The notes under the pieces are model-generated. The model had not been told where the DNA came from. It was given only the letters and a program-made list of their open reading frames with translations, and did no database searches. From an uncultured Gammaproteobacteria bacterium (GTDB lineage Bacteria > Pseudomonadota > Gammaproteobacteria > UBA9214), in assembly GCA_905479705.1 (NCBI GenBank), contig CAJQNP010000285.1, positions 1 through 32,400 of the forward strand: a stretch of 32,400 nt of DNA. The letters are read 5' to 3'. This document shows positions 15,243 through 24,050 of the stretch, piece after piece. The position numbers were made by a program, and so were the translations under genes. Each line of letters opens with the position of its first letter. The first letter of the stretch is position 1.

Positions 15243-15297
15243 CCTGCAGGAGCGGATCGCATCCGCGACAGAGGTGTATTCCTGTCGCTCCTGCAGG
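15243..15297. repeat. REP pair with nested hairpins
   Basis: Outer 12-bp perfect inverted repeat CCTGCAGGAGCG / CGCTCCTGCAGG at 15243-15254 and 15286-15297. Inside lie two smaller dyads, CGGAT-cgc-ATCCG and GACAG...CTGTC. The left half is a full REP of the family found at 17 kb and 23.8 kb. It lies between the convergent symporter and sprT genes. Confidence 0.85.
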
Positions 15298-15323
15298 TAG
15301 GCAATCACCTGCGTATCAACTGA

Positions 15324-15348
15324 TGCAGGAGCGCCCTGCAGGCGCGAA
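15324..15348 (+). repeat. REP element
   Basis: TGCAGGAGCGCCCTGCAGGC followed by GCGAA. This is the conserved GCAGGAGCG head followed by a GCGCC/GGCGC hairpin, in the same gap between the symporter and sprT. Confidence 0.85.
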
Positions 15349-17025: not shown

Positions 17026-17073
17026 TGCAGGAGCGCCTTGCAGGCGCGATCGCGGCTACAAGCCGCTCCTGCA
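17026..17073. repeat. Head-to-head REP pair (BIME-like)
   Basis: Two 24-base REP units in inverted orientation abut at a central GCGATCGC. The left unit starts TGCAGGAGCGCCTTGCAGGC (plus) and the right one, read on the minus strand, TGCAGGAGCGGCTTGTAGCC. The outer heads are perfectly inverted, while the inner hairpins differ with compensating changes. It sits between two convergent genes. Confidence 0.9.
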
Positions 17074-17891: not shown

Positions 17892-18420
17892 TTTCTGTCT
17901 CTCGCGGTGAACATTACTGGCCGACTGTATTCGACCAAAACGCGCATTTTATACCAATTAGCTGCCCGTCTTGCTGATAATGCAGAAAACAGTCCATTCA
18001 CTCCCGCTGCCTTACCTGCCCCCCCTGGCTCTTTGTTTATTCATCACGATCCGGCAGCAGCCCGCGCTCGTGCCGTGCTGACCCACGACCAGGACCCGCG
18101 GTGGCCGTGAATCCCTTTACGAAATCACAATGGAAAGGTCTACTTGAATGCAGCGACTGATTATCAGCCCTGACAGTCAACAACAGCCCGGGGTGTCAGA
18201 TGCAGGCTGTTTGCTGCTCGCGGCCCCTTGAACACGAGACGCCAGACACAGGACAGACAACGGCCTGGAACGGCAAGACAGCCGGCGTCCGCGGCATCAG
18301 CGGGCTGACTTGAAACCCGGGTTAGCGCCGCCACCCGTGAGCCGCGATTTCACGCGCAGCAGTCAGACACCAGCAGCTTACCTTGAAGCGGGCGATGCCT
18401 GCCTGCGGTCAGCCAGCCGG
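17892..18420. other. Gene-free stretch
   Basis: About 530 bases between the phosphatase start and the slipin stop. The ORFs here (17907..18110 and the start of 18310..19167) look random or are shadows of slipin. No REP, tRNA or clear terminator was seen. A small GCCGG/CCGGC dyad overlaps the slipin stop codon but lacks a T-run. A small RNA cannot be excluded. Confidence 0.45.
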
Positions 18421-19176
18421 TTAGCCGGCAGAATCATTGCCGAACATCTTGCCGATGCTGTCCAGTGGCAAGGGGAACACGATGGTGGAACTCTTTTCCC
18501 CGGCAATCTCGGTCAGCGTCTGCAGGTAGCGCAGCTGCAGGGACTGCGGTTGCTCATTCAGGGTTTTCGCCGCAGCGACCAGCTTTTCCGCGGCCTGCAT
18601 CTCGCCCTCGGCATGGATGACCTTGGCGCGGCGCTCGCGCTCTGCTTCAGCCTGGCGCGCAATCGCGCGCACCATAGTCTCATCGATATCGACATGCTTG
18701 ATTTCCACGTTCGCCACCTTGATACCCCAGGCATCCGTCTGCTGGTCGAGCAGGGTCTGGATATCGGAATTCAGTTTTTCCCGCTCCGCCAGCATATCAT
18801 CCAGTTCGTGCTGCCCCAGCACCGAGCGCAGCGTGGTTTGCGCCAGCTGGCTGGTTGCAGCCAGGAAGTCCTCCACCTGGATAATCGCCTTCTCCGCATC
18901 AATCACACGAAAGTAGATCACCGCATTGACCTTCACCGACACATTGTCACGCGATATCACGTCCTGGCTCGGCACATCCATCACAACCGTGCGCAAGCCC
19001 ACCTTGACCATTTGCTGTATCACGGGGATCACGATGATCAGCCCGGGACCTTTTACTTTCCAGAATCGTCCCAGCGTAAAGATCACCCCGCGCTCGTATT
19101 CCCGCAGGACGCGGAACGTATACAGCAACAGCGCTACAAAAATAACCAGCCCGACAAATACTCCTGAAATAGCCAT
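18421..19176 (-). CDS. Slipin (SPFH/stomatin-like) membrane protein
   Basis: A 251-residue slipin. It has one N-terminal membrane helix ([19 protein letters not shown]) and the SPFH domain ([76 protein letters not shown]). A long helical region follows ([31 protein letters not shown]), which mediates oligomerisation. Slipins build ring or cage assemblies in the membrane and are partners and substrates of NfeD proteases. The gene starts one base after the nfeD stop, with AGGAGG overlapping the end of nfeD, so the two are translationally coupled. Confidence 0.95.
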
Positions 19177-19177
19177 C

Positions 19178-20548
19178 TCATGCCTCCTGATGCAGCGACT
19201 GTACTTGCAGTACCAGCCCGTCTACGGCAACCACCTTTACCCTGTCGCCCCGTTTTTTCGGCCTGCCTGATTCAGCCTGCCAGATTTCACCGTGCACACG
19301 AATGCGGCCCGAGTGTTCAAAGTCGTCCAGCACCTCGCCAACCGCATGCAGCATTTCTTCCCGGCCACTGACAACAGGTCGTTCACGTGCCTTGATGGCG
19401 GCGGCGATGACAAACAGGAAGAAACCTGCCGTCATGAATGACAGGGCAAAGATCAACGGTAGCGAGACTGCGTAACCGGTGCCTTCCTGGTCGAACAGGA
19501 TAATGGAACCGATCACGAATGCGATCACACCACCAAAGCCCAGCGCCCCGAAACTTGGAACAAAGGCCTCTGCCAGCATGAATATGATACCCAGGCATAA
19601 CAGTGCCAGCCCGGCATAGTTCACCGGCAACACCTGGAAGGCATACAACGCGAGCAACAAACTGATGGCACCGGCGACGCCCGGTAATACAAAGCCCGGG
19701 TTGGCAAACTCGAAAAACAGGCCATATATACCGATCAGCATCAAGATGTAGGCCACGTTCGGATCGGTAATGACGGCCAGCAGGCGATTACGCCAGTCCG
19801 GCGCGATGACCTGCAGCGGGAGATGCTCGACATCGAGGACCTGCTCGATCCCTGCAACGACAACGCTGCGCCCCTGCATCTGCCTGAGCAGGTCACGCTT
19901 GTTCACGGCGACAATATCGATCACCCCCAGTGCCAGCGCCTCCTCTGCCGGCAGGCTGGCCGCCTCGCGCACCGCAAGCTCGGCCCATTCAACATTGCGC
20001 CCGCGCATCTGGGCCAGGCCACGCAGGTAGGCAGTGGCATCATTTATCCGCTTGCTTTCCATGGCGTCCTGTTTCTCCAAGGGTTGCGTATCCTGGTCAT
20101 TGCCGTCCTTCTTTTTCAGCATGTCATCGGCATCCGGAAATCCGCCGATCTCCACCGGCGTGGCCGCACCCAGGTTGGTGCCGGGGGACATGGCGGAAAT
20201 ATGGCTGGCATACAGGATGTAGGTACCCGCACTGGCAGCCCGGGCACCACCGGGGGTCACGTAGCTTGCAACCGGCACCGGTGACACCAGGATGGACTGG
20301 ATGATGTCACGCATGGCCGTGTCCAGCCCGCCCGGTGTATCCATCGACAGGATAACCAGCCCGGCGGACTGCTCGCGGGCACGTTCCAGTCCGCGATCGA
20401 TATAGTCCGCCGTGGCAGGACCAATCGCACCGTCAATATTCAGTACCACGGCCACCCGCTCGTTGGCGAATGGAAACCATGCCGGAGCAAGCAGCAGACA
20501 AGCCAGCAGCAGATACCAGGGGTAGCGACTTCGGTTGTTTATTTGCAT
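19178..20548 (-). CDS. NfeD-family membrane serine protease, long form
   Basis: A 456-residue long-form NfeD. After a signal or anchor helix ([14 protein letters not shown]) comes a ClpP-like protease domain with the catalytic serine S106 in [11 protein letters not shown] and the likely catalytic lysine K166 in [11 protein letters not shown] membrane domain of several helices follows (residues about 255-390), then a C-terminal OB-fold NfeD domain ([21 protein letters not shown]). The family cleaves the C-terminus of partner slipins and contributes to membrane quality control. An acidic, lysine-rich insert ([15 protein letters not shown]) separates Ser and Lys. A GGAG lies 9 bases before the ATG. 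Confidence 0.95.
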
Positions 20549-20596
20549 GATATCTCCACATTAGCACATGGCTGCGCCACCACCATGAAAACAGAC

Positions 20597-20626
20597 CTGA
20601 CCCGACTGCGCCGCATCGACTACAAT
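20597..20626 (+). promoter_or_regulatory. Candidate promoter of the methyltransferase gene
   Basis: CTGACC and TACAAT separated by 18 bases. The -10 ends five bases before the ATG at 20632, so transcription would start at or next to the start codon and give a leaderless mRNA. No Shine-Dalgarno precedes that ATG. Confidence 0.4.
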
Positions 20627-20631
20627 CATTA

Positions 20632-21387
20632 ATGTCACCGGTTATAACAATGCCACATAGATATTCATTATCCTGGCTTCTTGCCGCACTGCTGCCACTG
20701 GCCGCGACCCCCGTCCTCGGCGACGACTACACGCAGGCCCGCCAGCACCTGCTCAGTGAAATTGAGCGGGACGCACAGGACACCAGCCTCTACCTCGACA
20801 GGGAAGCACTGGACCCGCGCGTGATGGCGGTCATCGGCCGGGTACCGCGGCATGAATTCGTGCCGGCCAACCAGCGCAGCAACGCCTACCGCAATCGCCC
20901 CCTGCCCATTGGCCACGGACAGACGATTTCGCAACCCTATATCGTTGCCTTGATGACTGACCTGATCGAACCACAGCCTGATCACCGGGTACTGGAGATC
21001 GGCACCGGCTCCGGCTACCAGGCGGCCGTGCTGGCCGAGCTGACCGGGCAGGTCTACAGTATCGAAATCATCGAGGAACTGGGTGAACAGGCAAGCAAAC
21101 GGCTGGCCCGACTGGGCTATGACAATGTCAGCGTGCGACTCGGCGACGGCTATTATGGCTGGGAGGAACATGCCCCGTTTGACACCATCGTGGTCACGGC
21201 CGCCGCCAGCCATGTCCCACCGCCACTGGTCGCGCAACTCAAGCCCGGTGGTCGCATGGTCATCCCGGTTGGCAGCCGCTTTCTCACCCAGCAACTGGTG
21301 CTGATCGAGAAGCAGCAGGACGGCCAGCTTATTACCCGACAGCTGCTGCCCGTCCGCTTTGTACCGCTCACCGGGGGTCACGATTAA
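20632..21387 (+). CDS. Exported protein-L-isoaspartate O-methyltransferase
   Basis: A 251-residue PIMT that uses S-adenosylmethionine to methylate isoaspartyl residues in damaged proteins. Family motifs are FVPANQRSNAYRNRPLPIGHGQTISQP, the AdoMet motif VLEIGTGSGYQAAVLAEL (about 120-137), VRLGDGYYGW, DTIVVTAAASHVPPPLVAQLKPGGRMVIP. In front is a typical signal peptide (YSLSWLLAALLPLAATPVLG, cleavage near residue 30), so this copy should be periplasmic, unlike cytoplasmic Pcm. AdoMet supply outside the cytoplasm is unexplained. The start may be 20632 or the in-frame ATG at 20650; both keep the signal peptide. The 3' end overlaps the next gene. Confidence 0.93.
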   Translation: MSPVITMPHRYSLSWLLAALLPLAATPVLGDDYTQARQHLLSEIERDAQDTSLYLDREALDPRVMAVIGRVPRHEFVPANQRSNAYRNRPLPIGHGQTISQPYIVALMTDLIEPQPDHRVLEIGTGSGYQAAVLAELTGQVYSIEIIEELGEQASKRLARLGYDNVSVRLGDGYYGWEEHAPFDTIVVTAAASHVPPPLVAQLKPGGRMVIPVGSRFLTQQLVLIEKQQDGQLITRQLLPVRFVPLTGGHD

Positions 21388-23809
21388 GCCACAGCGGTTA
21401 CCCGTCCTGTCAATCGCACTGGTCTCGGCGACCGCGCTCGCCTACGAGGTGCTGTTGATGCGCCTCTACTCCATTATCCAGTGGCACCATTTCGCCTACA
21501 TGATGATCAGCCTGGCATTGCTCGGTTTTGGCGCCAGCGGCGCCCTGCTGACCATCCTGCAACGCCCCCTGCTGCAACGTTTTGCAGCGAGCTACATCAT
21601 AAACATCGCCTTGTTCGGCATCTCGACCGTCGCCTGCTTTCTGCTTGCACAGCGATTGCCCTTCAACGCCGAGGAGGTACTCTGGGATCCACGACAGTAC
21701 CTCTGGTTGACGGGCACCTACCTGTTACTTGCCGTACCGTTTTTCTTTGCGGCAAATGCCATCGGCCTTGCCCTGACCCACTACCGCCTCAGGCTCGCGA
21801 GGATTTATGCCGCCGACCTGCTGGGTGCCGGGCTGGGAAGTATCTGCATACTGCTGTTGCTGTTCTTCGTCTTGCCCATGCAGGCATTGATGCTACTCGG
21901 ACTGACGGCAATCGCTGCCGCCTTTCTGGCCAGCCGTGAACTGCAATATCCCTGGCGCACCACGGTGGTGTGGCTGGCCCTGGCCACTGCCTGCCTGCTG
22001 GTCATACCCGCCGAGTGGCGCACGCTGGAGATGTCACCCTACAAGGGTCTCGCGCAGACACTCCGCGTCAAGGACACGCGCATCATTAGCGAACTGTCCA
22101 GCCCGCTGGGACTGCTCAGTGTTGTTGAAAGCCCTGCCATCCCGCTGCGTCATGCACCCGGCCTGAGCCTGAACGCCCGCACGGAGCCACCGGCACAGCT
22201 GGGTGTCTTCACCGACGGCGACGGACTCTCGGTGATCACCCGCTACAACGGCGACCGGCAGACACTCGCCTACATGGACCAGCTGACCTCGGCCCTGCCC
22301 TACCACATGCACGCCATCAACCGCGTACTGATACTGGGTGCCGGCGGCGGGTCCGACGTACTCCAGGCGTTGTACCAGGATGCAACGACCATAGACGCCG
22401 TGGAACTGAACCCGCAATTTGCCCGCCTGGTGAGCAACGACCATGCCGACTTCGCCGGACATCTTTACCAGGCACCGGGCGTGTCCCTGCACACTGGAGA
22501 GGCGCGCAGCTTCACGGCCAGCAGCGCGGGTGACTATGACCTCATCCAGGTGTCATTGCTGGATGCATTCAGTGCGTCCGCATCGGGTCAGTATTCCCTC
22601 AGCGAGAATCACCTGTACACCACCGAGGCACTGGGCGAGATGCTGCAGAAACTTGCACCCGGCGGCATGTTATCGATTACACGCTGGGTAAAACTGCCAC
22701 CTCGTGACACCCTGAAACTGTTTGCCACGGCTGTCACGGCACTGCGCGACAGCGGCGCGCAGCATCCCGAACGGCAACTTGTGCTTATCCGTGGCTGGCA
22801 GACCAGTACCCTGCTCGTCAACAACGAGCCATTCACTGAGGAGCAAATCGAACGCCTGAAGACCTTCACGGCGGCCCGCTCTTTCGACGCGGCCTACCAC
22901 CCAGGCATCGGCGAAAAAGAGGGCAACTACTATAACCGCCTGCGGAATGACTGGTTCCATGACGCCGCCGTCGCACTACTGGGCGACGATCCCGGGGCCT
23001 TTCTTGACCAGTACAAATTCAACCTGCACCCGGCCAGCGATGACCAGCCCTATTTTTTCCATTTTTTCAGGTGGCAGACATTGCCGGAGATCCTGCGCCT
23101 GCATAACCAGGGCGGCGCCACACTGGCCGAGGCCGGCTACCTTGTGCTGGTTGCAACCCTGGTGCAGGCGATCATGGCCAGCCTGATACTCATCCTGTTA
23201 CCGATCTGGCTTTACCAGCGTTATATCAACCCGGCACGCTACACCACGAGTCGCGCACGGCTCATCGGCTATTTCCTGTTACTCGGACTGGCCTTCCTGT
23301 TTATCGAGATTGCCTTTATCCAGAAGCTGCTGCTGTTCCTGCATCACCCCCTGTACGCCATCGCCGTGGTCCTGAGCAGTTTCCTGGTGTTTTCCGGGCT
23401 CGGCAGTGCCTGGTTCGGACAGACGGCAGCAGACAATCGCGGCCGGCTGATCATCATGGCCATCTCGGGGATCGTCATCATCGGGATGACCTACCTGTTT
23501 ATGCTGGGACCGTTGCTGCAGCAATTCACGGCAGCCCCGGACGGGGTGCGCATCCTGGTCAGCGTCATCGTGATCGCGCCGCTGGCCTTCTGCATGGGGA
23601 TCCCGTTCCCCTCGGGGCTTGCACAACTGGCCGATTTCGCACCCGGCCTGATCCCCTGGGCCTGGGCCATCAACGGCTGTGCATCCGTGATCAGCGCCAT
23701 AGTCGCAACCCTGCTTGCGATACACTTTGGCTTCACCCTGGTTATCGCCATTGCACTGGTGATGTATGCCCTGAGCCTCTGGATGTTTCCGGTGCCCTGC
23801 GAGGAATAG
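21359..23809 (+). CDS. Membrane-embedded spermidine-synthase-like protein
   Basis: A protein of up to 816 residues in three parts. First, an N-terminal block of about six helices (10-215). Second, a Rossmann domain resembling spermidine synthase (about 300-530: VLILGAGGGSDVLQALY, DAVELNPQFARL, YDLIQVSLLDAF, LYTTEALGEMLQKLAPGGMLSI). Third, a C-terminal block of about seven helices (about 590-810). The first of the two active-site aspartates of aminopropyltransferases (D-x-x-D) is serine here (S399...D402), so normal polyamine synthesis is unlikely. The start is unclear. The listed TTG overlaps the methyltransferase gene and has no ribosome site; an ATT at 21383, preceded by GGGGG, is an alternative. 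Translational coupling to the upstream gene is likely. Confidence 0.85.
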   Translation: MYRSPGVTIKPQRLPVLSIALVSATALAYEVLLMRLYSIIQWHHFAYMMISLALLGFGASGALLTILQRPLLQRFAASYIINIALFGISTVACFLLAQRLPFNAEEVLWDPRQYLWLTGTYLLLAVPFFFAANAIGLALTHYRLRLARIYAADLLGAGLGSICILLLLFFVLPMQALMLLGLTAIAAAFLASRELQYPWRTTVVWLALATACLLVIPAEWRTLEMSPYKGLAQTLRVKDTRIISELSSPLGLLSVVESPAIPLRHAPGLSLNARTEPPAQLGVFTDGDGLSVITRYNGDRQTLAYMDQLTSALPYHMHAINRVLILGAGGGSDVLQALYQDATTIDAVELNPQFARLVSNDHADFAGHLYQAPGVSLHTGEARSFTASSAGDYDLIQVSLLDAFSASASGQYSLSENHLYTTEALGEMLQKLAPGGMLSITRWVKLPPRDTLKLFATAVTALRDSGAQHPERQLVLIRGWQTSTLLVNNEPFTEEQIERLKTFTAARSFDAAYHPGIGEKEGNYYNRLRNDWFHDAAVALLGDDPGAFLDQYKFNLHPASDDQPYFFHFFRWQTLPEILRLHNQGGATLAEAGYLVLVATLVQAIMASLILILLPIWLYQRYINPARYTTSRARLIGYFLLLGLAFLFIEIAFIQKLLLFLHHPLYAIAVVLSSFLVFSGLGSAWFGQTAADNRGRLIIMAISGIVIIGMTYLFMLGPLLQQFTAAPDGVRILVSVIVIAPLAFCMGIPFPSGLAQLADFAPGLIPWAWAINGCASVISAIVATLLAIHFGFTLVIAIALVMYALSLWMFPVPCEE

Positions 23810-23821
23810 GCGGGACGTCCC

Positions 23822-23854
23822 TTCGCGCCTGCAAGGCGCTCCTGCGCACTCGCC
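23822..23854 (-). repeat. 33-bp inverted repeat, left copy (contains a REP)
   Basis: Perfect inverted copy of 24018-24050. It contains a complete REP unit (GCGCAGGAGCGCCTTGCAGG on the minus strand) plus GGCGAGT outside the usual REP head. It begins 12 bases after the spermidine-synthase-like gene's stop. Confidence 0.92.
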
Positions 23855-23860
23855 AAGACC

Positions 23861-23885
23861 TGCAGGAGTGCATCGCATGCGCGAC
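23861..23885 (+). repeat. REP element, variant
   Basis: TGCAGGAGTGCATCGCATGC followed by GCGAC. The head has one change (GAGTG for GAGCG) and the inner hairpin is GCAT-cgc-ATGC. Confidence 0.8.
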
Positions 23886-23898
23886 CTTGTCAATCACT

Positions 23899-23925
23899 GT
23901 CGCGGATTACGATCCGCTCCTACGC
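23899..23925 (-). repeat. REP element, variant
   Basis: On the minus strand GTAGGAGCGGATCGTAATCC followed by GCGAC. The hairpin is CGGAT/ATCCG, the same subtype as at 15243. Confidence 0.8.
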
Positions 23926-23948
23926 GTTATTCTTACAGCGTGCGAGAA

Positions 23949-23975
23949 TTGCAGGAGCAGATCGCAATCCGCGAC
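23949..23975 (+). repeat. REP element, variant
   Basis: TTGCAGGAGCAGATCGCAAT followed by CCGCGAC. The head is GCAGGAGC and the inner stem is slightly degenerate. Confidence 0.78.
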
Positions 23976-24017
23976 TGGTGACCCACGAATTGTGTGCCAT
24001 GCAGCCATACAGGTGCC

Positions 24018-24050
24018 GGCGAGTGCGCAGGAGCGCCTTGCAGGCGCGAA
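24018..24050 (+). repeat. 33-bp inverted repeat, right copy (contains a REP)
   Basis: Perfect inverted copy of 23822-23854. It carries GCGCAGGAGCGCCTTGCAGG and ends 18 bases before the -10 of the quinone oxidoreductase gene. The flanks of the two copies do not match, so the identity is limited to exactly these 33 bases. Confidence 0.92.

Follow-up and report, generated by a model that had tools for sequence, protein, structure and literature searches.

The Locus

The window, that is, the whole stretch of DNA analyzed here (32,400 nucleotides), is an entire contig (C285) of an uncultured gammaproteobacterial assembly that amounts to 2.66 Mb in 325 contigs and is 98% complete; the same-genus relatives with which it is compared have been deposited as uncultured Gammaproteobacteria or Ectothiorhodospiraceae. 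A 229-bp intergenic cluster of REPs starts 12 nt past the stop codon of the gene for an 816-aa spermidine-synthase-like protein (spds), and it ends 30 nt upstream of the ATG of a gene for a zinc-type quinone oxidoreductase. The name of the former protein is that used in the original prediction, as it has no Pfam match. The cluster contains five recognizable REPs and a decayed sixth (Table 1), and it is bounded by exact inverted copies of a 33-mer (TTCGCGCCTGCAAGGCGCTCCTGCGCACTCGCC), each composed of REP A and part of a conserved REPIN spacer. No arm-to-arm match of this kind was found in 100 dinucleotide shuffles of the window, even when 3 mismatches were allowed. Thus the exact inverted ends, as well as the three further REP variants originally recognized between them, are confirmed, with the decayed REP as an addition. 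The abrupt stop of identity that had been claimed for both sides is real outside the arms, where identity is lost immediately (GCGCGAA/GGGACG on one side and GCGCGAA/AAAATC on the other), but not on the inner side, where an inverted repeat of 56 nt at 86% extends inward. Likewise, each arm does carry extra bases in addition to a full REP, but these lie on the inner, spacer side.

Table 1. Coordinates (in the window) of the REP cluster, its parts and the adjoining gene block.
Feature	Position	Strand	Basis
Four-gene block region (Band 7, NfeD, PCMT, 816-aa spds), with the REP cluster at the right junction	17892..24050		
Complete six-REP palindromic composite	23822..24050	no strand	single long hairpin fold
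Left 33-bp arm: REP A (R1, 23823-23843) and 9-11 bases of REPIN spacer	23822..23854	-	
C-type REP (R2), head-to-head partner of R1, 20-nt spacer	23864..23884	+	
B-type REP (R3), inner left	23900..23921	-	
B-type REP (R4), inner right, head-to-head with R3, 31-nt center	23953..23974	+	
Decayed sixth REP, C-type, mirror of R2	~23985-24008 (approximate)	-	56-nt inverted repeat, half-versus-half alignment
Right 33-bp arm: REP A (R5, 24029-24049) and REPIN spacer	24018..24050	+	

A Nested Palindrome

The entire 229 bp form an imperfect palindrome whose order is A-C-B, center, inverted B-(C)-A and whose spacers are homologous; aligned with their own reverse complement, they match at 73% (237 columns, E 7e-29). 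The left half aligns with the inverted right half at a score of 68, above the maximum of 54 (mean 24, sd 11) obtained in 500 controls in which the REPs were kept and the non-REP bases were shuffled, and therefore the spacers are mirrored, not the REPs alone. With the decayed C-type REP in the position mirroring R2, the right half thus repeats the left half in inverted form. The DNA of the cluster folds into one hairpin nearly from end to end (-89 kcal/mol, z -11.75), and the RNA fold is very stable (-150.7 kcal/mol, z -13.9). Such stability, along with the location shortly after a stop codon and with a conserved TGCTATAA box that follows ~16 nt downstream, ahead of the oxidoreductase gene, could speak for a functional RNA or DNA element (an mRNA 3' stabilizer, an attenuator or a topology site) that is kept for its role and is not mobile DNA. 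We find this decidedly unlikely: a single long hairpin of this stability is expected from palindromy alone, no terminator-like site was found at the cluster, the window has no Rfam match at the gathering threshold, and the equivalent places in the relatives either lack the cluster or differ.

A GTAG-Type REP Family

The REPs of this family follow the pattern G[C/T]AG-GA-GCGCCT-TGC-AGGCGC-GA, with stem variants, and a scan of the 2.66-Mb genome returned 134 and 132 matches, or at least 266 REPs, compared to 3 matches (1 and 2) for the reversed pattern. Among 55 exact A REPs, drawn from stretches around REP matches in this genome, position -2 is always G (55/55) and position -1 is T in 44 and C in 11, followed by AG, GA and the 6-bp stem. 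Outside these REPs, conservation ends one base after CGCGA (A in 48/55), while inward a spacer consensus of ~20 nt continues up to a second REP. A tag, a palindrome, two extra bases, a short tail and a high copy number, all present here, characterize the GTAG-type REPs, and by its sequence the REP of the cluster fits the described GTAG-1 type (Di Nocera 2013, PMC3733652), with which it shares the GYAG tag, the two unpaired bases (GA), the short perfect stem and the short tail, as well as the formation of head-to-head and tail-to-tail hetero- and homodimers and of large mixed clusters. Particular to the family described here are the stem/loop subtypes A, B, C, D, E, and F and the symmetric arrangement of six REPs, A-C-B-B-C-A. 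The BIMEs of Escherichia coli and their TnpA-REP REPtron (PMC8266576) present the same kind of mosaic of REPs and inverted REPs with defined spacers, and a single-stranded hairpin as the substrate; however, the stem is bulged in the E. coli REPs, whereas the REPs here have perfect stems and a 2-base linker after the tag, as in the group 3 REPtron Mb (PMC8266576).

The three REP clusters of the window are all intergenic. Besides the one in question, a group of REPs is located at 15248-15347, and an abutting tail-to-tail A/E pair at 17029-17070 lies between convergent genes; for the latter, one relative (G003) was considered as a candidate empty site, but its gap is too diverged for a clean alignment. 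A pattern search revealed another REP type on contig C283. The phage and plasmid collections searched contained no match.

What Is the Repeated Unit?

The pair R1/R2 is a 63-bp A/C REPIN, an inverted REP pair with a conserved spacer that folds into a hairpin, and it recurs in this genome and in the relatives, with the 20-nt spacer conserved in about ten clusters of the former and in several of the latter. Similar inverted doublets with conserved spacers, forming hairpins and linked to RAYTs, have been described in Pseudomonas (Bertels and Rainey 2011, PMC3116915); here, the two partners of an A/C doublet differ from each other, and the doublets build composites of 150-230 bp by nesting or mirroring. 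Other clusters in the genome repeat the arrangement <A 20 >C 15 <D or B ~36 >A, or a symmetric form, <A..<B >B..>A, so that a head-to-head/tail-to-tail architecture recurs at fixed spacings (20, 15, and ~36 nt).

Only one other unit matches the cluster in extent, a full palindrome of 236 bp with the same ends (C297:3455-3690), whose flanks are unrelated to those of the 229-bp unit. Its existence, the end of conservation outside REP A, and the occurrence in relatives of junctions without a REP cluster (G001 and G005, which have different REPs there, being the exceptions) are what could be expected if the 229-bp unit, ends included, were a discrete mobile element that had inserted whole between the two genes. 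We regard this as quite unlikely. The two full-length units are the only ones, and they are 72% alike (28% differing), so the unit as a whole was not copied recently; other clusters have only A-C-B, A-C-D-A or A-B-B-A parts in common with it; the commonest match in the relatives, among the matches listed, is the 63-bp A/C pair, with a maximum of ~104 nt, and not the 229-bp unit; and a decayed A REP, oriented as R1, already exists 20 nt behind spds in G001 and G012 (19-20/24 bases, against a chance maximum of 16). Neither transposition, nor excision, nor a clean empty-site allele of the 229-bp unit was seen.

The perfect 33-bp ends must be viewed in the same light. The exact 33-mer occurs in this genome only at the locus itself, and copies with 1-3 mismatches occur at 8 other places; the nearest other copy of the right arm (C297:3307-3347, 98% over 41 nt) is as close to it as the left arm is. 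An extended 30-mer has no match in any other species of the named-genome collection scanned. In opposite-facing A-REP pairs within one cluster, identity past the REP usually spans 0-5 bases, and only the present cluster (11 bases) and the one on C297 (14 bases) exceed ~5. As most of the similar clusters lack such ends, these are not the mark of a mobile unit. Both outer REPs also carry GCAG in place of an intact GTAG, suggesting little present activity, and no claim of present mobility is made.

The Neighborhood of the Cluster

The adjacency of spds and the oxidoreductase gene is found in no relative among the matches listed. In G003, the oxidoreductase gene and the neighbors beyond it come immediately after the genes that in the window lie left of 17.9 kb, the last of which belongs to the inositol-monophosphatase family, and the Band7-NfeD-PCMT-spds block resides on another contig, with other neighbors; the block is also located elsewhere in G004, of the same genus. 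Thus the REP cluster is located at the right-hand junction of a block that occupies a different place in this lineage. The cluster itself is lineage-specific. One could imagine it as a recombination scar, formed between REPs behind spds and REPs before the oxidoreductase gene when the translocated four-gene block was joined to its new neighbor. The REP remnants behind spds in G001 and G012, together with REPs ahead of the oxidoreductase gene in G001, suggest that the REPs in these places may be older than the junction, and the gene order in G003 would agree with a move of the block. However, a search for REPs at the block's left junction (17892-18420) and next to the genes located after spds in G003 found none, which weakens such a reading, and a like palindrome exists in another context on C297; a scar of this origin is therefore unlikely. 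Even less can be said for a misjoin across the cluster caused by its repeats, which we hold to be very unlikely. Many contigs of this assembly do end in or near REP clusters, and the novelty of the neighborhood could raise such a suspicion, but a palindrome of similar length is present on C297, and the REP-less left junction is equally novel, so that one chimeric join would not explain both.

RAYT Transposases

A RAYT with an exact REP A on both sides (GTAGGAGCGCCTTGCAGGCGCGA) is present in a relative of the same genus, G007, and it is recognized by NCBIfam REP_Tyr_transpos at 141 bits (cut-off 80). Its best match in the genome analyzed is at the end of contig C50 (L142/L233), where only the start of a RAYT remains, 71% identical over 28 aa, and this start is preceded by a decayed A REP (18/24 bases, counted by eye). 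The genome thus probably possesses the cognate RAYT gene, interrupted where the contig stops. Two complete RAYTs were found in this genome, each beside other REP types, although one A REP lies ~560 bp from the RAYT on C317. The genome's second RAYT (L072) is flanked by an unrelated type, GTAGCCCGGATGGAGGCG...ATCCGGG (around 640-760 and 1420-1470), indicating that at least two REP systems coexist. Around further RAYTs of the genus (53-62% identical), the flanking REPs share this design but belong to other stem subtypes; several of these subtypes, such as CGGACCGCGTCCG, serve as inner REPs in clusters of the genome analyzed. Related RAYT loci in named genomes have a similar REP within ~500 bp in 59 of 80 cases, compared to 1 in shuffles.

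Origin of the Composite

We now hold, with good confidence, that the cluster is a GTAG-1-type REP composite (BIME), made of REPs spread by a RAYT and containing nested REPINs, and that its 33-bp ends are not transposon termini. Two A/C pairs in opposite orientation would surround a B/B pair, resulting in the nested palindrome. The REPs would have spread in the lineage as non-autonomous elements, served in trans by a RAYT (TnpA-REP) acting on single-stranded hairpins, and the family has probably been copied by a domesticated transposase of a known kind, with recognition, cleavage and copying of single strands presumed by analogy with the published TnpA-REP and REPIN work (PMC8266576, PMC3116915). 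The symmetry of the composite probably arose either from an inverted duplication or from REPINs being nested step by step, and the perfect ends would stem from common ancestry within a sub-lineage or from a local correction of the arms against each other. The outer REPs, with their GCAG, are probably poor substrates today, as such substrates are barely detectably cleaved by one TnpA-REP studied, an enzyme different from the RAYT here (PMC8266576).

With respect to the original prediction, the idea of a REP-derived, non-autonomous, RAYT-linked and lineage-specific sequence has found support in the high-copy family, in the RAYT of G007 and the fragment on C50, and in the absence of the cluster from most relatives, and the proposed search for a RAYT gene was successful, including the two complete genes. 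Neither the view of the 33-bp identity as a hallmark of a mobile unit nor that of the whole unit as a recent copy has survived the comparison with the other clusters and with C297. The mobile unit itself has gained a second example on C297 but lost ground to the A/C pair as the part repeated in the relatives, among the matches listed. The search for empty sites has revealed corresponding places without the cluster in most relatives, but no clean empty site. Uniqueness of the 33-mer, along with its presence in the same form in all relatives, had been named as counting against mobility; the exact 33-mer is indeed unique, but near-copies exist and the relatives lack it.

The cluster is a well-formed and ordinary case of the known bacterial mini-mobile DNA and leaves the known picture of REP elements unchanged. 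It does show clearly how REPINs can be nested into long palindromes, it adds a lineage of uncultured gammaproteobacteria in which closely related genomes differ in their REP subtypes and, along with these, in the RAYTs they flank, and it bears on the questions of which unit is copied (the REP, the doublet or the composite) and of REP clusters as points of rearrangement. A bolder proposal, that the six-REP A-C-B-B-C-A palindrome is a propagating unit above the level of the REPIN, and that such REP ends can move genes, such as the four-gene block, via a RAYT, appears to us most improbable.

Two further observations can be made. Tandem arrays of REP-containing units are found at L050 (1-620) and L055 (28-508), the former with a 145-bp period and three near-identical copies. 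The closely related RAYTs of the genus at L123-L127, L134, and L135 are each accompanied by a different flanking REP stem subtype, and they represent a natural data set for the co-evolution of REPs and RAYTs.
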